Positions 2,027 to 20,356 of a stretch of DNA of 64,000 nucleotides are shown here, piece after piece. Every line of letters starts with the position of its first letter. Position 1 is the stretch's first letter. Source of the stretch: Nitrospinaceae bacterium (lineage in GTDB: Bacteria; Nitrospinota; Nitrospinia; Nitrospinales; VA-1); NCBI GenBank assembly GCA_021604505.1, contig BQJC01000003.1, forward strand, positions 1-64,000, written 5' to 3'. A program made the translations under genes and the position numbers. A model generated the notes under the pieces. The model searched no databases and was not told the origin of the DNA. It saw only the letters and a list, made by a program, of their open reading frames with translations.

Positions 2027-4636
2027 TTATTTCTTGTCAACGGCATCTTTCAACTTGTCGATCTCCTGGATCGCATTCATCAGGTGTTCCGGTTCACCCA
2101 GCTCTTTTGCGACCTCGCGGGCTTTTTCAAGATATTTTTCTGCAGGATCTTTCCGGCTGACGATGGTTTCCATTCGCGCCAGCGTCAAGTAAAGCTGAAC
2201 CAGATTCACCAGACTTTTTGCGGAGGAGAAATTTTCGCTGGCTTTATCGAAGTAATCTTCAGCTTCCTCAAAATACCCTTCCTTAAATTTCAAATTTCCA
2301 AGATAGGTCAAATCCTGCGCCATCCCTATCTTGTCGCCAATCTCTTCGGTCAATTCCAATGCCTTCAGATATTGCTTTTCGGCTTCCTCCCTTTCCCCGT
2401 TGCTAAAACTAAGGTTCCCCAGGTTGCGGTAATCCGCCGCCAATTCCTTTTTATCGCCCTTCTTTTTTGAAATGTCGAAAGATTCCTGAAATTTCGCCTG
2501 AGCCCTTTCCTTATAACCCCGGCCCATAAAAAAGTTTCCCAGGGCTCTCAGGTCAAAGCAGATTTCCTCTGGATCTTTCAGGGCTCTGGATTGACCCAGG
2601 GCCTTTTCCAGGAATTTCTCCTGTTTCTGCCGGTCTTTGATCTCATTGTAAATATTAGCGAGATTCCTCGAATCATAGCAGGCGGTCCGCGGGTCCTTGA
2701 GTTCCTCAGCAATTTCGAAGGCCTTAGAGGCGTATTTTTCCGCCTGCGTCCAATTCTCCCTCTGTACGTATAAAGTGCAAAGGTTCCTGTTATCTTCGCC
2801 CATCTCCTGTTTATTGCTGTTTTTAGTATTGATTTCCAGAGCTTTTAAATAATTCTGCTCCGCTCCCGCCCAGTCCGTTTTCTGCAAACACATATCGCCC
2901 AGATTTCGATAATCGCTGACCACGCCTGCAAGATTCCCCAGCTTTTGATTCAGCTGGACGGATTTTCGCAGGGTCTTCTCTGCCGGCTCGACCTTACCCA
3001 GTTTCATCTGGGCTTTGGCGCGATCCCGGTATAATTCGGAGAGGCTCCGATGGTCCTGCAAATCTTCTTTTATTTTTATGGCTTTAGAATAACTTTCCTC
3101 AGCTGATTTGGAATCGTCATTTTCAAATTGGATATTGCCCAGGTTCGCCAGTGTCTCGCCGGCTCCCGCTTCATCCTTTATATTTTCCTGAAGCGCAACC
3201 ACCTGCTTGAATATTTCAATGGAAGGCTCAAGTTCCTGAGACAAGAAATGAACATTCCCCAACTCACTCATGAGGGCGATTTTCAACTTGTCGTCTTTTT
3301 CAGTTTCAGGTTTTTTAAGTTCTTCCTGCAATTCCTTCTTGCGGCGGCTCAAGTATTCGGGTTGGCTCATGATGTACACGAGCTTTTCCTGAACCTGCTG
3401 GACGCTTTTGGCGTCCTTCATCGCATCGAACAGGGAGCTGGCGTGGCTCAGACAGCCTTCAGCTTTTTCCAGATCGCCGATTTTAATATAAATATCCCCT
3501 AGTATTTCGCACTCCTGAGCGATTCCAGGGCGGTTTTCAAGTTTTTCCATAAGCTCAAGGGACTTACTATGATTCATCCCCGCCGCATCCCAGTCCTCTT
3601 GCAACGCTTTAACGTTTCCCAGGTTGGAATAGCTCCGGGCTTCTCCCAATACATCATCCAGATCTTCCATGATTTTTAGAGATTGGTTGTAGTAATCCCA
3701 GGCTTGGTCCAGGTTTTTCTTGTGCATGCAAATATTGCCCAGACTGCCGAGCAGATAAGACTGGCGCCTTTTATCCTGCCCCTCCTCCACCAGAGTGAGG
3801 GCTTTTTTATAGTTTTCTTCGGCCAAATCGAAATTTTTTGGGTCGCCGGACAATCCGATTTGCAGGTAGGTGGTGGCCAGGTTTCCATAACAGACCCCGG
3901 CGGAATGCTTGTCTCCAAGATCCTCAAAAATCGCGATGGAATGTTGAATGGTTTCTGCCACCTTATCCATTCGAGCGCTTTTGTAATAGATCTCTTCCAA
4001 ATCCTGATACTTTTTAAGCAATTCCCGTTTTTCGCCTGTTTTGGCGATTTTTTTTATTTCAGTCAACAAACCCTCTTCCTTATTTTTGAGGTAACCGGGA
4101 TGTTTCTCAATGGAATCGGCTTTTTCCTGCAACTGCCGAATTTTCTCCTGGTCTTTTGCGCTGTCCAGACAGTCCCGGGCCTTGGTGAAGTAATCCCTGG
4201 CCGTATCAAACGCTTCCCGCTTTAGATGAACGTTGCCCAGATACTCATAGTAAAGGCCCTGACCATGAGAGTCGTCTTGCTTCACCATCAACTCTAAAGC
4301 TTTCTTATAATTTTCTTCCGCCTTCTCCAGGCTTCCCAGATAAAGATAAACGCTCCCCAGGTTTCCCAACGAACTCTCGATACCTTTGACATCCTCCGCT
4401 TTTTCCATCAACGCCAGGGATTTGGAATAATAATCTTCCGCCATGTCGAGACGCCGGTTTTGAAAACAGATATTGCCCAGATTTCCCAGCACATAGGCCT
4501 GCCCGACCTCATCCCCCGACTTCCCCATCAGATTGAGGGCTTTCAGAAAATTAGATTCCGCCTCTTGAAGGTTGTTGTTTTCCAGGCTGGCAAAAGCCAG
4601 TTGTTCAAATTTTTTGCCGTCATCCATCGGGTTCAT
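2027..4636 (-). CDS. Large TPR protein (kinesin-light-chain-type repeats)
   Basis: An 869-residue protein made almost wholly of tetratricopeptide repeats of about 40 residues, with recurring cores such as LGNLGNI and AEENYKKALEL. Charged helical spacers at about 175-215 and 405-440 split the repeats into three solenoid blocks, and each block ends in a similar Gln/Lys-rich helix. There is no signal peptide or membrane segment, so it should be cytoplasmic. TPR solenoids bind other proteins; nothing here shows the partner and no enzymatic domain is attached. The ATG at 4636 is the first Met of the frame. The gene stands alone between two spacers of more than 300 bases. Confidence 0.85.
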   Translation of the reverse strand: MNPMDDGKKFEQLAFASLENNNLQEAESNFLKALNLMGKSGDEVGQAYVLGNLGNICFQNRRLDMAEDYYSKSLALMEKAEDVKGIESSLGNLGSVYLYLGSLEKAEENYKKALELMVKQDDSHGQGLYYEYLGNVHLKREAFDTARDYFTKARDCLDSAKDQEKIRQLQEKADSIEKHPGYLKNKEEGLLTEIKKIAKTGEKRELLKKYQDLEEIYYKSARMDKVAETIQHSIAIFEDLGDKHSAGVCYGNLATTYLQIGLSGDPKNFDLAEENYKKALTLVEEGQDKRRQSYLLGSLGNICMHKKNLDQAWDYYNQSLKIMEDLDDVLGEARSYSNLGNVKALQEDWDAAGMNHSKSLELMEKLENRPGIAQECEILGDIYIKIGDLEKAEGCLSHASSLFDAMKDAKSVQQVQEKLVYIMSQPEYLSRRKKELQEELKKPETEKDDKLKIALMSELGNVHFLSQELEPSIEIFKQVVALQENIKDEAGAGETLANLGNIQFENDDSKSAEESYSKAIKIKEDLQDHRSLSELYRDRAKAQMKLGKVEPAEKTLRKSVQLNQKLGNLAGVVSDYRNLGDMCLQKTDWAGAEQNYLKALEINTKNSNKQEMGEDNRNLCTLYVQRENWTQAEKYASKAFEIAEELKDPRTACYDSRNLANIYNEIKDRQKQEKFLEKALGQSRALKDPEEICFDLRALGNFFMGRGYKERAQAKFQESFDISKKKGDKKELAADYRNLGNLSFSNGEREEAEKQYLKALELTEEIGDKIGMAQDLTYLGNLKFKEGYFEEAEDYFDKASENFSSAKSLVNLVQLYLTLARMETIVSRKDPAEKYLEKAREVAKELGEPEHLMNAIQEIDKLKDAVDKK

Positions 4637-4950
4637 TATCCTTTAAAGTTTTTATGGAACAATTCGCTCCCAACCTCCCCACGAGAACGGGGCGTGTCGA
4701 AACGCACGCGGGCCTAACAAAACAATATTTTAATTCTTGTTTGATGTTTCAGGATTATATTGGCAATGTCGGCAGGATGTCAACACGCGGTTATTCTTTG
4801 GCAAATCCGGTTTCCTGCGATAACTTTGATCCTAAGGGCAAGGGATATCAGGCTTCACCGGGAGACAGATCCCGTCATCACAAACGATTGCTTGCTGATC
4901 GATGTTCACAATGTTTCAACCCTTTGATTTTTGGAGGATCCTTGCTCAAG
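4637..4950. other. Intergenic region upstream of the TPR gene
   Basis: About 314 bases between two minus-strand genes, presumably holding the TPR promoter. It contains G/C-rich inverted sequence near 4680-4715. A 108-codon plus-strand frame crosses it but runs into the next gene's antisense, has no ribosome site and an unusual composition, so I do not call it. Confidence 0.4.
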
Positions 4951-5265
4951 CTATCTCACCGTTTCAATGCCGACGGCTAAATCTTCATCTTCATCGGGCC
5001 CCTTGATATTTCCGTCCAAGCCCTTTATCCTGCGGGTCATCCTGAGGCTCCCCATGAGATGCTCGTTGCATTTGATACAAATCCATCCTTCCCCTGAAAA
5101 GATCCAGCATTCATATTCCACCCATTCCTGCGCCTCCTCTTCGCTGTCGCAATACTCCCCATTTTGCAGACAGTCTTTGGCAACTTTGGTTTGACACTCG
5201 ACTGAATATTGGTTATTTTTCCTAAGGATGAATGTGGGTTCTTCCTGTCTATTTTCCTCATTCAT
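4951..5265 (-). CDS. Small cysteine-rich acidic protein of unknown function
   Basis: A 104-residue protein. I chose the ATG at 5265 because GAGG lies 7 bases before it; an in-frame ATG at 5280 overlaps that ribosome site. The middle part holds seven cysteines, ending in an Ile-Cys-Ile-Lys-Cys-Asn-Glu-His group, so a small zinc-binding fold is likely. The N-terminus and C-terminus are acidic. No family is recognised. The gene is followed by a long spacer and is preceded by the broken radical SAM fragment at 5317-5540. Confidence 0.6.
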   Translation of the reverse strand: MNEENRQEEPTFILRKNNQYSVECQTKVAKDCLQNGEYCDSEEEAQEWVEYECWIFSGEGWICIKCNEHLMGSLRMTRRIKGLDGNIKGPDEDEDLAVGIETVR

Positions 5266-5316
5266 ATCCCTTCCTCTCAAATGGAAATCAACGAAGCTGT
5301 CTAAAGTGGCATTATA

Positions 5317-5540
5317 CTAAAGGTGGTATTTGTTAGGTAGAGGCAGAGTGAAATATTTACCCCGTTCGTGGAAAACAAACTGTTTATCCCCAAATGGGCG
5401 CAAATCTGCTCCAAGGTCCTCGGTTTTAATTGCAAATGGAATCCGGCCAACCTTCCACTAGGCCGCGAAATGGCCAGGCTTTCCCTATATTTGAAAATTT
5501 CCAGTGAATGTTTCAGCTCACGCATTCTAAATGGCAAAGC
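5317..5540 (-). pseudogene. Broken copy of the 3' end of the radical SAM gene at 6408-8255
   Basis: Read on the minus strand, 5388 to 5317 encodes DKQFVFHERGKY followed by FTLPLPNKYHL and a TAG stop. The intact enzyme ends with DKEFIFHERGKY, LTLPLPHNSHL and a stop. Just upstream, in another frame, comes KPRTLEQICAH, matching KPMALEKICAH of the enzyme. Between the two blocks about 20 codons are missing and the frame shifts. Sequence up to about 5540 is only vaguely similar. There is no start codon or ribosome site that would express the fragment. It is the decayed tail of a second copy of the gene, now separated from the intact copy by the lipoprotein gene at 5684-6322. Confidence 0.75.
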
Positions 5541-5683: not shown

Positions 5684-6322
5684 ATGCTCAAACTAAATTT
5701 CAATATCAAACTTTTTATAGTTTCCCTTCTAACTGTCTTGGGACTCAGCGCTTGCGCAACCCATGGCCCCGCTCACACCGGATTTTTAAGCGATTACTCA
5801 AAATTGCAGAAAAATCCGGATACTGAAGGATCGAGGATTTACTTCAATCCCGATAAATCTTTGAAAAATTATTCCCGGTTCATAATAAACCCGGTTCAAG
5901 TGAGGTTATCCTCTAAGGGGAAAATGTGGAATGTTAAAAAAGACCAATTGCACGCTATCTCCCAGTATGTTCATGACCAATTTGTCTCTGAATTGACTAA
6001 AAGCAATTACAATATCGTCAATACGCCAGGTCCCGAAACCTTAATTCTGCGGGTTGCCATTACGGAAGTCGCTCCAACCCGAATGATAAATCGGCATAGC
6101 AGTATGATGGTCGGCGGTATCAGCTTAGGCGGTGCTTCAGGGGAGGCGGAATTGATCGATGCGCTTACAGGAGACGTGGTGGTGGCCGCAGTAGAGTCTC
6201 AGAAGGGTGAAAAGGGGTTTAACGGGTTGACGAAATACGGAAATGCTAAAAATGTAATGGACCGATGGGTCAAAAGACTCATCATCCGGATGGATCAAGA
6301 ACATGGCAAAACCCGGAATTAG
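5684..6322 (+). CDS. Outer-membrane lipoprotein, DUF3313-like
   Basis: A 212-residue protein with a signal peptide ending in a lipobox (LSAC, Cys24), so it should be lipid-anchored and exported. GAGG lies 8 bases before the ATG. The body resembles DUF3313 lipoproteins: an early YSKL segment, a YFNPDKSLKNYSRFIINPVQV stretch that continues into a predicted strand, then a conserved VAITEVAPTR block and a glycine-rich hinge followed by ALTGDVV. The family's function is unknown. It lies, in the opposite direction, between the radical SAM gene and that gene's broken 3' copy. Confidence 0.8.
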   Translation: MLKLNFNIKLFIVSLLTVLGLSACATHGPAHTGFLSDYSKLQKNPDTEGSRIYFNPDKSLKNYSRFIINPVQVRLSSKGKMWNVKKDQLHAISQYVHDQFVSELTKSNYNIVNTPGPETLILRVAITEVAPTRMINRHSSMMVGGISLGGASGEAELIDALTGDVVVAAVESQKGEKGFNGLTKYGNAKNVMDRWVKRLIIRMDQEHGKTRN

Positions 6323-6407
6323 ACGATAAATGATGGACTTGAACGGCCTGGCTCCCTTTCAATAAATCAGAATTGAATGGAATAGCACCGCGAACCCTGC
6401 ATCACAA

Positions 6408-8255
6408 CTAAAGGTGAGAATTGTGTGGGAGTGGCAGGGTCAGGTACTTGCCACGTTCATGGAAAATGAATTCTTTGTCCTGTAAATCCTGAAGCGCTTC
6501 GTGTACAGCATCCGCCTCCACTTTGTTCGGCGCGGATTTTTCCTCCACATGAGCGCAAATCTTCTCCAGGGCCATCGGCTTTTCATTGCAGTAGGCAAGT
6601 ATCCAGGCCGGAAGCCCTTCAAAACGGGTTTTTGTGGGTTCGTTCACCGACCGGCCATCGTACACGGTCACAAAATCCAGGGATTTGGTGAAAAACAGAA
6701 AGGGAACCTGCTCCGATTCGTGGCGGCGTCTCCATTCCGAGACGGTTTCCTTTAACTTCAGGCTGAATTGCGGGCTGACCTGGTTTTCCGATTCGAACTC
6801 GAAGTCGTAGGCGATTTTCATCAAATCCAACTGTTTTCCGTCATAAACATAAGGGTAAGCCTCGCCGGGGCCTTTGATGGTGACGCCGTAGTCACCGGGC
6901 CGGGTGAAATACGGACTGAACCGTTCCAGCCAGAGATCCCCAACGCCAATGGGGGGCTGAAGGTGAGTCAACGATTGCAGAATATCGATTTGCTTTTGGT
7001 AATCTTCGTCGATCTCGCCGGGAAACCCGGTCAGAATGTTCCAGGTCACATCGATTCCGTAATACAGCGCCCACTTCAGGAAAAAAATGTTCTGCATGGG
7101 GCGCACGCCCTTATCCATGTCGTTCAACTGGTTCGTGCTGAAGCTCTCGATTCCCGGTTGAATCACGTTGACGCCGCCTAAGGCGAGGGTTTTGATCTGC
7201 TGTTTGTTCAGGTTGCTTTTCACCTCGATAAAAAACTGCAGGTCGTAATTTTCCTTCGCGAATTCCTGGAAAACCCCGTCGATGTAACTCAGCTCGAGGA
7301 TATTGTCCACCAACCGGAAGCGGAAGGTGTCATAGCGTTTGGAGAGTTCCGAGATATCCGAATGGACTTGTTCGATGCTCCTCGCCCTGAACTTCATCGT
7401 GGACGCGTTCAGCCCGCAAAAGGTGCAGTGATGCTTCTCGCCCCACCAGCAGCCACGGGCGGTCTCATAAAGAACGATGGGGTTTTCCAACAGCTGGGAG
7501 CCAGGATCGATGGCTTTCAATTGCTGAAAATAATCGTCATAATCCGGCGGACCGTATTCCTCAAAGCTTTGGAACATTTCCGAGCTTTCGCGGTGCAGGA
7601 TTTCCCCGTCCTTGCGGTAGACGACTCCGCCGGGAATCTCACCGCCATTTTGCAGGGCTTGCATCAGTTGCGGCAGAATGGGCTCCGCTTCGCCCTGCAC
7701 CACGTAATCGATCCAGTCAAAGGCACGAAAATATTCCAGCCCCATTTCGGAATCGAAATTCGAACCGCCGAACAGAATTTTAATGTCAGGATATTTTTCC
7801 TTGATGCCTTTAGCCAGGGTCACGCTGGCCAGGTTCTGATTGAAGGTGGACGTGAAACCCACAGCCGAAAACTGACCCCAGTCCACCGACTCCACCGCCC
7901 ATTGAAGAAACTCCGGAACCATTTTCTCCTTCACATCCAGCAAATATTGCACCGGGCGGTCGATGGATTGGCAGACATCATTTACGTGGTTATCAAAGTG
8001 ACGGGTGTATTCGCGGTTGCCCTCGGCATCTCCGAACAGAGGGTGAGAAAACAGCCATTCGCCGATCAGGAACCGCTTTTCGCAAAGTTCGTTATAAACC
8101 GGCATTCCCAACTGATGAGCGAATTGCAGGTTGAAGTAAAAACTCGTCACCTCGTGCCCGTGACTCTTGAGCAGGGTGGAGAGCGTCCCCAGTTGAATCG
8201 AGGGATAAATATGAAAGCCAAACGGCATATTTACTAACGCGGTTCGAAACGGCAT
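6408..8255 (-). CDS. B12-binding radical SAM enzyme, RiPP maturation type
   Basis: A 615-residue protein. Residues 1 to about 200 form a cobalamin-binding domain (MPFGFHIYPSIQLGTLS start; later ILFGGSNFD). The radical SAM core has ARGCWWGEKHHCTFCGLN with Cys269, Cys277 and Cys280. This wide C-x7-C-x2-C spacing and the GCWWG wording are the signature of the family known as RiPP maturation radical SAM protein 1, in which members modify ribosomal peptides, probably by methylation at carbon. The C-terminal 100 residues look like a winged-helix module. Normally a precursor peptide gene sits nearby; I found none within 2 kb. The second radical SAM gene at 18536-20356 belongs to a different branch. 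The substrate is therefore unknown. Confidence 0.85.
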   Translation of the reverse strand: MPFRTALVNMPFGFHIYPSIQLGTLSTLLKSHGHEVTSFYFNLQFAHQLGMPVYNELCEKRFLIGEWLFSHPLFGDAEGNREYTRHFDNHVNDVCQSIDRPVQYLLDVKEKMVPEFLQWAVESVDWGQFSAVGFTSTFNQNLASVTLAKGIKEKYPDIKILFGGSNFDSEMGLEYFRAFDWIDYVVQGEAEPILPQLMQALQNGGEIPGGVVYRKDGEILHRESSEMFQSFEEYGPPDYDDYFQQLKAIDPGSQLLENPIVLYETARGCWWGEKHHCTFCGLNASTMKFRARSIEQVHSDISELSKRYDTFRFRLVDNILELSYIDGVFQEFAKENYDLQFFIEVKSNLNKQQIKTLALGGVNVIQPGIESFSTNQLNDMDKGVRPMQNIFFLKWALYYGIDVTWNILTGFPGEIDEDYQKQIDILQSLTHLQPPIGVGDLWLERFSPYFTRPGDYGVTIKGPGEAYPYVYDGKQLDLMKIAYDFEFESENQVSPQFSLKLKETVSEWRRRHESEQVPFLFFTKSLDFVTVYDGRSVNEPTKTRFEGLPAWILAYCNEKPMALEKICAHVEEKSAPNKVEADAVHEALQDLQDKEFIFHERGKYLTLPLPHNSHL

Positions 8256-15457: not shown

Positions 15458-15480
15458 GGAAGAACGGCACAGGGACATCC

Positions 15481-15610
15481 TGTCTTTGCGAGGAGCGGCA
15501 GCGGCGAAGCAATCGAGAAAACCACAATACACTCTGAATCTCCCCCTGCGGGGCACGAAAGCTTCGGAATATTATAACGACCACGCCGCTTTCAGCGGCT
15601 CGCGATGACA
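15481..15610. repeat. Dispersed palindromic repeat, copy 2
   Basis: The left end TGTCTTTGCGAGGAGCGGC and right end GCGGCTCGCGATGACA are inverted partners, with GGCGAAGCAATCGAG inside. It belongs to the same REP-like family as 12714-12786 but has a longer centre (about 60 bases that include a second small stem). Confidence 0.6.
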
Positions 15611-15661: not shown

Positions 15662-16267
15662 ATGGACACTCTTGACGCTATCTACCAACGCCGGGCCGTC
15701 AAACAATTTGACCCCACACACAAGCTGTCTCCTAAAGAAGAAACCATGCTTCTGGAAGCCGCCATTCAGGCGCCGACCAGTTTCAACATCCAACACTGGC
15801 GTTTCGTGATCGCCCGCGACCCCGAACTCAGGCAGAAAATCCGCAAGGAGTTCGGCAACGATCAGGCGCAGATGACCGACGCATCGCTTCTCATCATCAT
15901 GACCGCGGACATCAAGGCCTGGCAGAAAAACCCCGAACGCTACTGGCAAAACGCGCCCAAAGAAGTGGCGGAACTTCTGGTTAACTGGATGAAACCCTTT
16001 CACGAAGGGAAGGAATGGTTACAACGCGACGAGGCCCAGCGGTCGATCGGCATCGCCATGCAGACCCTGATGCTGGCTGCCAAGTCAATGGGCTACGAAT
16101 CCTGCCCGATGATTGGATTCGACAGCGAAAAAGTTGCGGAACTCATCAACCTTCCTGACGACCATGTCATGGGCGCGATGGTGGCCATCGGCAAGGGCAC
16201 CAAGGACCCCTGGCCCAAACCCGGCCAACTACCGCTCAGCGAAGTGGTGATCGAAAACAAATTTTGA
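15662..16267 (+). CDS. Nitroreductase-family FMN protein
   Basis: A 201-residue nitroreductase. The FMN phosphate-binding arginines are in YQRRAVKQF (8-16); APTSFNIQHWRFV (about 36-48) and a GYESCPMIGFD segment (about 144-154) also fit FMN-dependent NAD(P)H oxidoreductases that act on nitro compounds, quinones or enones. It is close to the usual length. A copy of its last 23 codons, with a changed end, reappears at 17599-17672, and the hairpin after its stop is also repeated there. It probably belongs functionally with the SDR/tautomerase/hydrolase group. Confidence 0.88.
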   Translation: MDTLDAIYQRRAVKQFDPTHKLSPKEETMLLEAAIQAPTSFNIQHWRFVIARDPELRQKIRKEFGNDQAQMTDASLLIIMTADIKAWQKNPERYWQNAPKEVAELLVNWMKPFHEGKEWLQRDEAQRSIGIAMQTLMLAAKSMGYESCPMIGFDSEKVAELINLPDDHVMGAMVAIGKGTKDPWPKPGQLPLSEVVIENKF

Positions 16268-16277
16268 TGAATGAACT

Positions 16278-16310
16278 CCCCCTTCCATGAAGGGGGCTGG
16301 GGGGATTTCG
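16278..16310. repeat. Dispersed hairpin repeat after the nitroreductase gene
   Basis: CCCCCTTC-CAT-GAAGGGGG (16278-16296) is an 8-bp perfect stem with a 3-base loop, followed by CTGGGGGGATTT. The same wording occurs at 53951-53984. A third, G/C-clamped version is at 17690-17718. It may also end transcription, but no T-run follows. Confidence 0.65.
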
Positions 16311-16412
16311 GACCTCCCTTACCCTTCATTTGCGAGAAAGGGTATAAAAACGCCTCCCCTTACCAAGGGAGACGTAGAGAACACAAAAAGTTAATTAAAT
16401 GAAAAAATTCTC

Positions 16413-16769
16413 ATGAAACTTTACGCAATCCGGATTTTCGTCGATGACTGGGACAAAGCCTGCGATTTTTATCAGAAGGTATTAAAGCTACCGCTGAAAT
16501 TTTCCGATGCCGCAATGGGCTGGGCGGAGTTTGATGTCGGCGGTGCAAGTTTCGGTATCGAACGCGTTGACAAAAACACCGATACGAAAGAGAAACTGGT
16601 CGGCCGGTTTTTAGGCGTATCCCTGCAAGTGGATGATATCCAATCCAAATATGAAGAGTTGAAGGCATTGGGTGTGGAATTCACATCCCCTCCCGAAAAA
16701 CAACCCTGGGGTGGCACCCTGGCGCACTTCAAAGACCCCTCCGGCAATACGTTAACCTTATTGGGTTAA
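16413..16769 (+). CDS. VOC-superfamily (glyoxalase/bleomycin-resistance fold) protein
   Basis: A 118-residue protein of one complete VOC module pair: MKLYAIRIFVDDWDKACDFYQKVL at the start (the first metal-face strand and helix) and FLGVSLQVDDIQSKYEELKALGVEF in the middle, ending in HFKDPSGNTLTLLG with the glutamate position replaced by Thr-Leu. Family members are metal-dependent lyases, dioxygenases or binding proteins. The exact substrate is not evident. It lies within the segment bracketed by the two copies of the nitroreductase 3' end. The ribosome site is weak. Confidence 0.85.
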   Translation: MKLYAIRIFVDDWDKACDFYQKVLKLPLKFSDAAMGWAEFDVGGASFGIERVDKNTDTKEKLVGRFLGVSLQVDDIQSKYEELKALGVEFTSPPEKQPWGGTLAHFKDPSGNTLTLLG

Positions 16770-16789
16770 TCCTATGCCGGTGAGGAGCT

Positions 16790-16912
16790 ATGAATCCCTC
16801 ATCTAACAGTCGGCGGGACAACCTGCTTGCCATAGTCGGGTTGATGGTCGCTTTACCGGCAATTTATTTCTTTACCGGACGCTTTCTGAAATACGAAATA
16901 CTTTACCTTTAA
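16790..16912 (+). CDS. Possible 40-residue single-pass membrane peptide
   Basis: ATG at 16790 follows GAGGAG by 2 to 3 bases (a close but strong ribosome site). The 40-residue product has a polar start (MNPSSNSRRDN) and one hydrophobic helix (LLAIVGLMVALPAIYFF), with a positive residue pair before it, so it would insert with the N-terminus inside. It starts 21 bases after the VOC stop, so it could be cotranscribed. It is a plausible short gene but not matched to any family. Confidence 0.5.
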   Translation: MNPSSNSRRDNLLAIVGLMVALPAIYFFTGRFLKYEILYL

Positions 16913-16971
16913 TGTTATACCGACCCTTATAAACGAAACCAGGCATCCATCAAACTCAGGAGGAAGCAGCC

Positions 16972-17598
16972 ATGAGCACGAGCTACAAATACAACCGCCT
17001 ATCCAAAGATAACGCAGCCTTATTGCTGGTGGATCATCAGTCGGGTCTTATCTCGCTCGTTCAAGATTTCTCACCTGGCGAGTTTAAAAATAATGTTTTG
17101 GCAGTGGCTGCTTGTGGAGCCTATTTCAAGCTACCGACCATTCTAACCACCAGCTTTGAAAACGGTCCGAACGGTCCACTGGTCCCCGAACTCAAGGAGA
17201 TGTTTCCCGATGCACCATACATTGCGCGTCCGGGGAACATCAACGCTTGGGACAACGAGGACTTTGTCAATGCCATCAAGCAAACAGGCCGCAAGCAACT
17301 TATCATCGCAGGCGTAGTGACTGAGGTTTGCGTCGCCTTCCCCGCACTATCTGCGATTGAAGAGGGTTATGAAGTGTTCGTTATCACAGACGCTTCTGGA
17401 ACCTTCAACGAGGTCACCCGCCACAGTGCATGGTTACGGATGCAGGCCGCCGGCGTGCAGTTGATGAATTGGTTTGGCATGGCTTGCGAACTTCATCGCG
17501 ACTGGCGCAATGACATTGAGGGATTAGGCGCCTTGTTTTCGAACCACATACCCAATTACCGGAATCTCATGACAAGTTATTCTGCCATGAACAAGTAG
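16972..17598 (+). CDS. ycaC: YcaC-like isochorismatase-superfamily hydrolase
   Basis: A 208-residue cysteine hydrolase with Asp21 (LLVDHQSGL) and Cys120 (GVVTEVCVAF) of the Asp-Lys-Cys triad; AGGAGG precedes the ATG. From memory, long blocks (RPGNINAWDNEDFV, ACELHRDWRNDIEGL, SNHIPNYRNLMTSY) are nearly the same as in the enterobacterial protein YcaC, whose natural substrate is unknown. Such closeness to a proteobacterial protein suggests a recent transfer, in line with its place just before the copied 3' end of the nitroreductase gene. The related family splits isochorismate or hydrolyses amides; neither activity is shown here. Confidence 0.9.
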   Translation: MSTSYKYNRLSKDNAALLLVDHQSGLISLVQDFSPGEFKNNVLAVAACGAYFKLPTILTTSFENGPNGPLVPELKEMFPDAPYIARPGNINAWDNEDFVNAIKQTGRKQLIIAGVVTEVCVAFPALSAIEEGYEVFVITDASGTFNEVTRHSAWLRMQAAGVQLMNWFGMACELHRDWRNDIEGLGALFSNHIPNYRNLMTSYSAMNK

Positions 17599-17672
17599 CT
17601 GCCATCGGCAAAACCACCAAAGACCCGTGGCCCAAGCTCGGCCAGTTGCCGCTTAGTGAGGTGACGGTTTAG
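17599..17672 (+). pseudogene. Copy of the 3' end of the nitroreductase gene
   Basis: Directly after the YcaC-like stop, 17601-17672 reads AIGKTTKDPWPKLGQLPLSE, then VTV and a stop. The intact nitroreductase ends AIGKGTKDPWPKPGQLPLSE, then VVIENKF and a stop. The match continues at DNA level and is followed, as in the intact gene, by a CCCCTTCCATGAAGGGG hairpin. No start or ribosome site exists, so it is a remnant of a second nitroreductase gene whose body was replaced by other genes. Confidence 0.85.
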
Positions 17673-17689
17673 AATAGTTTTTGAGAGAT

Positions 17690-17718
17690 AAGCTTCCCCT
17701 TCCATGAAGGGGAAGCTT
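17690..17718. terminator. Perfect 13-bp hairpin between two gene remnants
   Basis: AAGCTTCCCCTTC-CAT-GAAGGGGAAGCTT: a perfect 13-bp stem with a 3-base loop. It lies between the nitroreductase remnant (plus strand) and the radical SAM remnant (minus strand), where a shared terminator of two convergent genes would be. No long T-run follows on either side, so termination is plausible, not proven. It is related to the repeat at 16278-16310. Confidence 0.55.
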
Positions 17719-17762
17719 GAAATTCCTGTCAACCTTGCCTAATTTCCCAACTTGGGAAAAAT

Positions 17763-17840
17763 CTATATCATCACTTTGGGGGTGGGTTGCCGTTTGATGG
17801 AAGGGTTCTTTCTGGCCTGGAGATCGGTTGGCTCCAAGCT
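17763..17840 (-). pseudogene. Copy of the 3' end of the radical SAM gene at 18536-20356
   Basis: On the minus strand, the end of this segment reads DLQARKNPSIKRQPTPKVMI and a TAG stop. The intact radical SAM protein ends NDLPDIYVKNNPSIERQLAP, then EVML and a stop. NPSI, RQ, P and VM fall in register with the stop, and the DNA is clearly alike over about 36 bases. Upstream sequence is not recognisable. It is separated from the intact gene by the gene at 17906-18433. No start codon or ribosome site is present. Confidence 0.7.
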
Positions 17841-17905
17841 CTTTGCACTTTTTTGCGGCCCCTTGTCCTGTTGGGAGAAAGACAGGTCAAACAACCGGAT
17901 TTTTT

Positions 17906-18433
17906 CTAGTTTGAATTTTCTTCAATACAATCTTCGATTTTACCTTGTTGGCCGATCCGGTTGATTATGGCCTCCTGCAATTGATCGTCAAAAGCATTGA
18001 TCCCTTGTTCAGAACATCCTGATATTTTCCATTCATAGCCTTCAAATATATTTTTTCCCGCACACAATTTGTCAACTTCGTTGACAGCTTCTTCTATGTT
18101 TTGGGATTTTAATCGCACATCCAAATCTGTTTCTACTAAAATGTGATAGATGTTCAGTTCGTAATGGGCTTTGAATCCATCCCAGAATATATTGTCATCA
18201 GTTTCTTCCTGCTCGATGCGCTCTAGGATGTCATCACGTAATTTCTCATTGAAATCATGGATGCCGCCATCAGGGCATCCTTCGATTTTCCACTCGTAGC
18301 CTGCAAATAATTTTTTGCTATCCAACATTCTTTCGACTTCTTTATTTGCTTCCTCCTTTGTTGTTCTTGATTTCAACTTGACCTCGAGATTGGTATATAC
18401 GGGCACGCGGTTTACTTTTAATTTAAGTCCCAT
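17906..18433 (-). CDS. Unknown protein with an internal two-fold repeat
   Basis: A 175-residue soluble protein with GGAGG 10 bases before the ATG. It consists of two copies of a module of about 75 residues. Each has a L-x-V-x-LKS start, a helix rich in Glu, the block GYEWKI-x-GC followed by Gly-Ile, and an acidic helix ending in R-I-x-Q. The copies are centred on residues 48 and 138 and are roughly half identical. One conserved cysteine per module follows GYEWKI. I do not recognise a family. The gene sits between the intact radical SAM gene and that gene's 3' remnant and runs in the same direction. Confidence 0.75.
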   Translation of the reverse strand: MGLKLKVNRVPVYTNLEVKLKSRTTKEEANKEVERMLDSKKLFAGYEWKIEGCPDGGIHDFNEKLRDDILERIEQEETDDNIFWDGFKAHYELNIYHILVETDLDVRLKSQNIEEAVNEVDKLCAGKNIFEGYEWKISGCSEQGINAFDDQLQEAIINRIGQQGKIEDCIEENSN

Positions 18434-18535
18434 TTTTCTGCTTTCCTCCGGCTTTCAATACAGGTCTATTAACTCTGTCGAATATTCGATCAAATCCAAA
18501 AGATCCAGCTGTGTTTACTTGGGGAAGTCAACCCA

Positions 18536-20356
18536 TCACAACATGACTTCGGGGGCAAGTTGCCGTTCGATGGAAGGATTGTTTTTTACGTAGATATCGG
18601 GAAGGTCGTTGGTGCCGAAATGGGTGATGTAGAGAAAGATGTGTTCCCTGGCATTGATTCGTAACGCCCAGGGGTCGAAATCGTTTTTATAAAAATCCTC
18701 GTAACGGGCCATCGCTTCTTCGGTGGTCTGCCCCGATTCCGGTGTGTAATAAAAGTCAAGGGCCAGGTCGTGCTCGGGATTGGTTTTCACGGTGATACCG
18801 AAATGCTCCGTTTCATGCATGACCGGCGCGTTGTTGTAGAGCACGAAAAAATACATCTCCACCGATGGAATCTTGTCCTGGTGATCGAGGAGAAACCGCC
18901 GCGTGTCTTCGGCTTCTTCCGGCGTCTCGCTGGGAAATCCGTAAAAGCCCATCACATGGCTCCAGATTCCTACGCGCTTGGCCTCGGTCAGATTCTTGAT
19001 CGCCACTTTGATGTTTGTGTCCTTTTTGACCAGCCGGATGATGCGCTCATTGGCCGATTCCAACCCGAAATACAGGGAACGGCACCCGGCCTTGGCCGCC
19101 AGATCCCACATCTCCGGTTCCAAGAGGCTCGCTTCAAAGCGGATCAACGTCGTCCAGTAAATATCGAGCTTCGCTTCGATCATCATCGGCGGCAGTTTGA
19201 CGAACAAGGCCGGTGGAAACGATTCATCGGTGAACAGGAAATGCCTGGCGTTGTACTTTTCCTTCAACTGCCTGAGTTCATCGACGATCTGATCGGCATG
19301 CTTGGCGCGGAATTGATCGATGTAGCCCGCACCGTGGTCGCAGAAGGTGCATTTTCCCCAATAGCATCCGCGCGTTCCCAAATAAGGGACCAGTTTTTCA
19401 GGAGAAAAATATTTTTCCCACGGGATGCCGTCGAAATCGGGAATCGGCAGTTCATTCACCCGCTCCTGATACGTTTCGTTGACCCGGACGAGACCGGACT
19501 CGTCTTTGTAAATGAGATTGGGAACCTCAGACATCTTACGCTTGCCGTCCAGTGCTTCCACCAGCCACACCAGAGCGTGTTCCCCTTCATAAGTGATCAT
19601 CGAATCGAACGCATTGCCCCAGAATTTATCCTGTTTGGGCAACTCGTTTTTGAGCCGCGTGACGACGTTGCCGCCGACCGTGACATGGATGTGCGGGTAT
19701 TTCTCCTTGATCAGCGTGGAAAATGTGATTCCCGACATGAGCTGGACAGGCGTACCAATCGAGATGCCGACGATGTCCGGCTTTTCCTCTTCGATGTATT
19801 TAAAAACCAGCTGACGGCACACATCGGCATACACGTTCACGTTGTCATCGTGCGGGGCTTTGACGAGGTCTTCCGAAACCCACGGGCGGTACACGTTGAG
19901 GTTGCTTTCCACCGGGTAAAAATTAACACTGGCGGGAAAATAGGAAACGGAAACATATTCCATGATTTCCCGAAAGGCGTTCAGAGCCCATTCAGCCTTG
20001 TCGACTTCATAAAACTCTTCGGACCGCATGATGACCTTGGCACGTTCCACCTTATTGATGTGATGGTCGAGGTCCAGCTTGCCGTAATATTTCAGTAAAT
20101 CCAGTAGATCCAGTTCCTCTTCGGTGATCGTGCCTTCCCATTTTTTGGTCTTCAGTTCTTTTCGGCGGCGGTCGATCCGGTCGCGGGTGAATTCCAGGTA
20201 TTCACGGGTGAAGAAGTGGTCATACATCTCGACATTGATGTCTTTTTGCACCACTTCAATGCCGTTTTGGCGCAATACCGCCGTCAAACTCGGAAGAGCC
20301 AGGTAAGGCGCCGTGGGGACCCATTCCGGCGGAAATATCAGCATGACCTTTTTCAT
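18536..20356 (-). CDS. B12-binding radical SAM protein
   Basis: A 606-residue protein. The N-terminal half holds a cobalamin-binding domain (IVGISIGTPVQLMSG near 195-210, then TVGGNVVTRL near 228-237, with an acidic insert at about 80-130). The radical SAM core has GTRGCYWGKCTFC with Cys331, Cys336 and Cys339, an unusual C-x4-C-x2-C spacing. GLESAN and MGFYGFPSETPEEA follow, as in the B12 radical SAM group of methyltransferases and ring-contracting enzymes. The substrate cannot be told; it is not of the RiPP type found at 6408-8255. It is convergent with the nitroreductase block, and its 3' end is duplicated at 17763-17840. Confidence 0.85.
   Translation of the reverse strand: MKKVMLIFPPEWVPTAPYLALPSLTAVLRQNGIEVVQKDINVEMYDHFFTREYLEFTRDRIDRRRKELKTKKWEGTITEEELDLLDLLKYYGKLDLDHHINKVERAKVIMRSEEFYEVDKAEWALNAFREIMEYVSVSYFPASVNFYPVESNLNVYRPWVSEDLVKAPHDDNVNVYADVCRQLVFKYIEEEKPDIVGISIGTPVQLMSGITFSTLIKEKYPHIHVTVGGNVVTRLKNELPKQDKFWGNAFDSMITYEGEHALVWLVEALDGKRKMSEVPNLIYKDESGLVRVNETYQERVNELPIPDFDGIPWEKYFSPEKLVPYLGTRGCYWGKCTFCDHGAGYIDQFRAKHADQIVDELRQLKEKYNARHFLFTDESFPPALFVKLPPMMIEAKLDIYWTTLIRFEASLLEPEMWDLAAKAGCRSLYFGLESANERIIRLVKKDTNIKVAIKNLTEAKRVGIWSHVMGFYGFPSETPEEAEDTRRFLLDHQDKIPSVEMYFFVLYNNAPVMHETEHFGITVKTNPEHDLALDFYYTPESGQTTEEAMARYEDFYKNDFDPWALRINAREHIFLYITHFGTNDLPDIYVKNNPSIERQLAPEVML

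Follow-up and report, generated by a model that had tools for sequence, protein, structure and literature searches.

A short block of DNA lying between a nitroreductase gene (nfn) and a radical SAM gene of a Nitrospinaceae bacterium appears to be the old junction of these two convergent genes, which two inserts have parted from the intact genes. This reading follows from a congener, G001, whose junction aligns with the block from end to end. We consider it likely that the old junction was entered twice, once at the 3' end of nfn and once at that of the radical SAM gene, each separate insertion duplicating at least 60-110 bp of its target.

The window, that is, the whole stretch of 64,000 nucleotides analysed here, lies on contig C3, which is 609 kb long. 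The genome (G000) comprises 3.64 Mb on 14 contigs and was compared with four congeners (G001 to G004). The window, G001, G002 and G003 have a common flanking order, with a 650-aa gene, TetR, tautomerase, DLH and nfn genes on one side of the junction and the radical SAM gene, a 210-aa gene and a ferredoxin gene on the other; the SDR gene of this order was not detected in G001. The nfn protein is 88% identical at the same locus in G001, G002 and G003. Identity of the radical SAM gene is 89-91% across all four congeners, and its protein matches PF04055 and, weakly, a B12-binding family in Pfam. Between the DLH and nitroreductase genes, at 15479-15609, lies a member of a family of dispersed intergenic repeats (about 120-200 bp) that occurs many times across G000 to G004.

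The 3' ends of both genes occur a second time between the intact copies. BLASTN aligns 16184-16295 with 17601-17712 at the nfn end (112 bp, 75%, E 4.4e-17) and 18542-18600 with 17769-17827 at the radical SAM end (59 bp, 76%, E 1.5e-7). An earlier note on this DNA, which had proposed shuffled sequence as the yardstick for such echoes, is borne out: none of 2000 dinucleotide shuffles reached either score. It had put the nfn echo at 17599-17672, correct within a few bases, and the match in fact extends beyond the stop into a hairpin. The location that it gave for the radical SAM echo, 17763-17840, also holds within a few bases, but homology is firm only to 17827. The nfn echo starts 2 bp past the stop codon of the YcaC-like gene (17596-17598).

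The hairpin itself, at 17690-17718, is real, as had been claimed, with a folding energy of -23.1 kcal/mol and a z of -4.9. Its core, CCCCTTCCATGAAGGGG, recurs behind intact nfn (16279) and at two more places in 1.49 Mb of sequence, indicating that the hairpin derives from a dispersed intergenic repeat. The fold is strong, but neither strand has a T-run after it and it is a dispersed repeat, and we do not treat it as a functional terminator.

Features of the nfn/radical SAM junction and of the parallel case in the same window (window positions)
Feature	Position	Strand	Remark
Lipoprotein-like gene, insert of parallel case	5684..6322	+	in G003 also beside this radical SAM gene (86%); lacking in G001 and G002
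Echo of second radical SAM 3' end	5316..5434	-	two matching pieces with internal deletion; adjoins old neighbour 4951-5280
Second radical SAM gene, parallel case	6408..8255	-	same 3'-end structure
Intact nitroreductase (nfn), left member of putative ancestral convergent pair	15662..16267	+	Pfam PF00881
Intact copy of duplicated stretch (nfn 3' end and first intergenic hairpin)	16184..16295	+	75% identity to 17601-17712
Insert 1	16296..17600	+	absent from this junction in G001, G002 and G003
VOC gene of insert 1	16413-16769	+	glyoxalase/VOC, Pfam PF00903
Small ORF of insert 1	16790-16912	+	within insert 1
YcaC-like gene of insert 1	16972-17598	+	isochorismatase, Pfam PF00857
Putative whole ancestral nfn/radical SAM junction, kept as block	17601..17827	.	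end-to-end alignment with L069 4888-5128
nfn 3' end echo, non-functional	17601..17684	+	in-frame TAG inside
Perfect hairpin of putative old junction	17690..17718	.	fold; aligns with G001 junction hairpin
Radical SAM 3' end echo and its old downstream flank	17767..17827, possibly to 17840	-	sequence match to intact end
Insert 2	17828..18535	-	holds 175-aa two-fold-repeat gene 17906-18433
Intact radical SAM/B12 gene, right member of putative ancestral pair	18536..20356	-	Pfam PF04055

In G001 (locus L069) the full nfn (4367-4972) and radical SAM (6883-5063) genes converge directly; their stop codons stand 90 bp apart, and the interval holds a related hairpin. The earlier note had suggested looking for this arrangement in relatives. 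The alignment of this junction with the block includes the hairpin and both gene ends, and scores 181 against 46 for the best of 500 shuffles. This collinearity supports the proposal that the middle is an old nitroreductase/radical SAM junction. Furthermore, each echo retains the ancestral downstream flank, and the DNA behind each intact gene is absent from that place in G001, as expected if new DNA pushed the intact genes apart. The content between nfn and radical SAM amounts to 0 kb in G001, 1.3 kb in G002, 2.3 kb in G000 and 3.4 kb in G003, and is unrelated. The G001 state is taken as ancestral on the basis of four congeners, among which G004 lacks a contig that could be used at this locus. 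The 1.3-kb insert of G002 (L070) is flanked by two 30-bp copies (4259-4288 and 5506-5535, 80% identical) of another hairpin-like intergenic repeat, GAATGTCCGC...

The two inserts carry ordinary genes, and a Pfam search found no recombinase, transposase or integrase among their proteins. The VOC gene of insert 1 is present only in G000 (0 of 60 relatives at E<=1e-15). The YcaC-like gene is absent from the congeners, and its nearest relative (74%) lies in a genome of another family within the same order. A donor order nfn-VOC-YcaC was not found among the other nfn loci compared, including those of other families, which counts against the course of events proposed below.

The two-fold-repeat protein of insert 2 has no match in Pfam. 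Its gene is not foreign to the genus, with one orthologue each in G001, G002 and G003 (78-83%), all at other junctions (L282, L283 and L284). G001 and G003 share one site, near genes that we take to encode an FG-GAP protein and a peptide-binding protein, and the sites in G002 and G000 each differ, the G002 gene lying between genes that we take to be coaBC-like and SDR-like. On contig C4 of G000 the FG-GAP and binding-protein genes are present and the two-fold-repeat gene is missing. The orthologues also share about 75 bp in front of the gene and 20 bp behind it, so a single-gene unit of about 620 bp (17884-18505) appears to have moved. The FG-GAP/peptide-binding junction (G000:C4:34786-41692; L248, L249) is a second variable hotspot, with contents that differ among G000, G001 and G003.

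The same structure recurs at other sites. A second radical SAM gene of the window is followed by an insert and then by an echo of its own 3' end, in two pieces (5316-5389 with 6407-6480, 73%; 5383-5434 with 6537-6590, 81%). In G001 (L233) this gene is directly followed by the homologue of 4951-5280, uninterrupted. Likewise, the 3.4 kb that G003 carries between the same nfn/radical SAM pair consists of other genes, and a second copy of the final 42 codons of radical SAM is found there (140 bp, 84%). Between the G003 echo and the intact end lies an insert of 553 bp, whose single lipoprotein-like ORF is unique to G003; this insert behind the same radical SAM gene is an independent one. Its stop (TCAT at 7478-7481) overlaps by 4 bp the last bases common to echo and intact copy. 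All 3' cases run in one order, from the intact gene end through the insert and the echo to the old neighbour, which is what an insertion with target duplication produces.

The earlier note had described a process that leaves only stop-proximal ends, and these turn out not to be obligatory: G003 also has a 5'-end duplication (L235 6142-7401), in which 134 bp at the start of a dioxygenase-like gene are repeated at 91% around an insert of about 1 kb. This case rules out a mechanism confined to 3' ends. It is also the youngest example seen, and a good one for reading the exact joints.

We propose the following course of events. The block would have started as the intergenic junction of two convergent genes, and an insertion would have entered at the 3' end of each, with a target duplication of at least 60-110 bp. 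On the gene side the copy would stay intact under selection, whereas the far copy, joined to the old downstream sequence, would decay into an echo. The sequences show the empty junction in a congener, both inserts, the duplications and their recurrence elsewhere; how the strands recombined and where the duplicated end came from are matters that we infer. The likeliest route would be recombination in which homology or a template guides one end and the other is joined illegitimately; candidates are homology-facilitated illegitimate recombination, a template switch re-entering upstream of its exit, and Campbell-type integration of a fragment bearing the gene end. Insertions at a junction would persist only where the gene stays whole, and a duplicated end would ensure this. 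Selection may thus suffice to explain why the footprints lie at gene ends, only gene-sparing insertions surviving.

The proposed insertions leave a choice of two sub-models. Under true target duplication, each of the two copies is the resident's own. Under displacement, incoming DNA of a related species brings its own nfn or radical SAM 3' end together with the cargo, and the resident end is displaced downstream and decays; we hold this to be a serious possibility, somewhat short of an even chance. The nfn echo, although unconstrained, is 82% identical to the G001 and G002 ends, as close as the intact end is, a value that is not obviously predicted by plain recent duplication of a constrained gene and that leans to displacement. 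The retention of the resident downstream flank by the echoes also fits displacement, and the model has been published for other loci, namely the 3' ends of Vibrio T6SS effector genes and Rhs orphans (PMC5361080). However, for radical SAM the echoes resemble relatives no more closely than the intact ends do: 15 against 6 differing sites favour the intact copy in comparison with G001. Neither nfn nor either of the two radical SAM genes has a clear mosaic break along its length, and a clade test of the nfn echo gave a p-AU of 0.30, which favours neither sub-model.

A broader reading, in which single-gene units (a gene with tens of bases on each side) move without transposase through a dedicated mechanism in this genus, repeatedly delivering genes (the two-fold-repeat gene being one) to gene ends and duplicating roughly 60-200 bp of target each time, strikes us as unlikely.

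Tandem duplication of whole genes or of the locus, followed by loss of all but the 3' ends while other genes filled in, is in our estimate quite improbable. A plain tandem copy of a gene 3' end with the next gene does exist in G000 (C2:484152), but at the junction this course would need two duplications and two near-complete deletions, convergent and repeated in G003, and no congener has tandem nfn or tandem radical SAM at the locus. Integrative elements typically integrate into the 3' end of a gene, restore the gene and leave a displaced end, and a site-specific element of this kind that has lost its integrase would account for the gene-restoring arrangement seen here. The repeats, however, vary in sequence and length from site to site (59-140 bp) with no fixed attachment core, one of them is at a 5' end, and inserts 1 and 2 consist of one to three ordinary genes with no recombinase; an integrase or transposon origin is thus disfavoured, and we regard it as very improbable. 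Chance similarity or assembly error, in favour of which nothing was found, has next to no probability: it is refuted by the match to the G001 junction, the shuffles also reject chance, and the 25% divergence between the copies argues against a misassembled duplicate.

Insertion with target duplication, the reading that we prefer, is an event type already known, here unusually well documented, with the uninterrupted state, the inserts and the duplications all visible. The earlier note knew of no standard mechanism; descriptions do exist (PMC1643837; PMC5361080; PMC3240628). Insertion with long target duplication was described in Helicobacter pylori by Nobusato, Uchiyama, Ohashi and Kobayashi in 2000 (as related in PMC1643837, PMC4978471 and PMC3154945), where extra genes likewise lie between long direct repeats of a target that is single-copy in a relative. 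The direct repeats that flank the inserts here, 112 and 59 bp in the window and 140 and 134 bp in G003, are within the tens to hundreds of base pairs of that definition. The Helicobacter cases are often linked to restriction-modification genes, a link not stated to be required; a Pfam search found no such genes among the proteins of inserts 1 and 2. In contrast to these cases, the cargo here consists of ordinary enzymes, lipoprotein-like genes and a gene of the genus, the repeats, at 73-91% identity, are old, and one junction has taken in two insertions.

Homology-facilitated illegitimate recombination is known from experiment (PMC3240628), and displaced old 3' ends have been proposed for Vibrio T6SS effector genes and Rhs (PMC5361080). 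Those loci resemble ours in having an intact gene, a new gene behind it, and the displaced 3' end with the old neighbour further down (PMC5361080, PMC3240628). They differ in that the displaced ends here come from enzyme genes that have no immunity genes, with no donor found.

The differing gene sets between the same two conserved genes in G000, G001, G002 and G003 recall the minimal mobile elements of Neisseria. Such elements are swapped through homologous recombination within the conserved flank on either side, and, unlike the structure described here, a two-flank exchange does not predict duplicated gene ends. The term minimal mobile element is in use (PMC3082526 and others). Among the small variable segments of other species, 10-18% lie between direct repeats (PMC2884548). 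A limited literature search found no report of such events in Nitrospinota.

For small genes that enter a chromosome without a transposase, the route is usually a guess based on nothing more than presence and absence. In this genus the empty junction, the insert and the duplicated target coexist at several sites, and the repeats reveal the old flank and the order of events. With more congeners, the locus could tell target duplication from displacement by a donor end. For annotation, the structure counsels caution, as short intergenic 3'-end fragments can be footprints of insertions and not decayed paralogues.

The well-supported cases cluster, three of them at 5-19 kb in the window and two in the corresponding part of G003. 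Less strict criteria, applied to 1.49 Mb, gave about 15 direct-repeat pairs flanking 0.4-4 kb. Three of these were compared with congeners and gave no further proven case, one being uninterrupted in G001 with no insertion difference; we therefore claim no genome-wide rate. G000 was scanned as stretches that make up about 41% of the genome. Among 996 genes (1.19 Mb of G000), short non-paralogous gene-end echoes of at least 40 bits numbered four at 3' ends and none at 5' ends, all four being on the same strand as their gene and downstream of it. One of the four, the kinase/response regulator pair at C2:484152, is a plain tandem duplication. At this locus (G000:C2:482554-484690; L228) the response regulator gene is tandem-duplicated, and the duplication takes in the final codons of the histidine kinase upstream.
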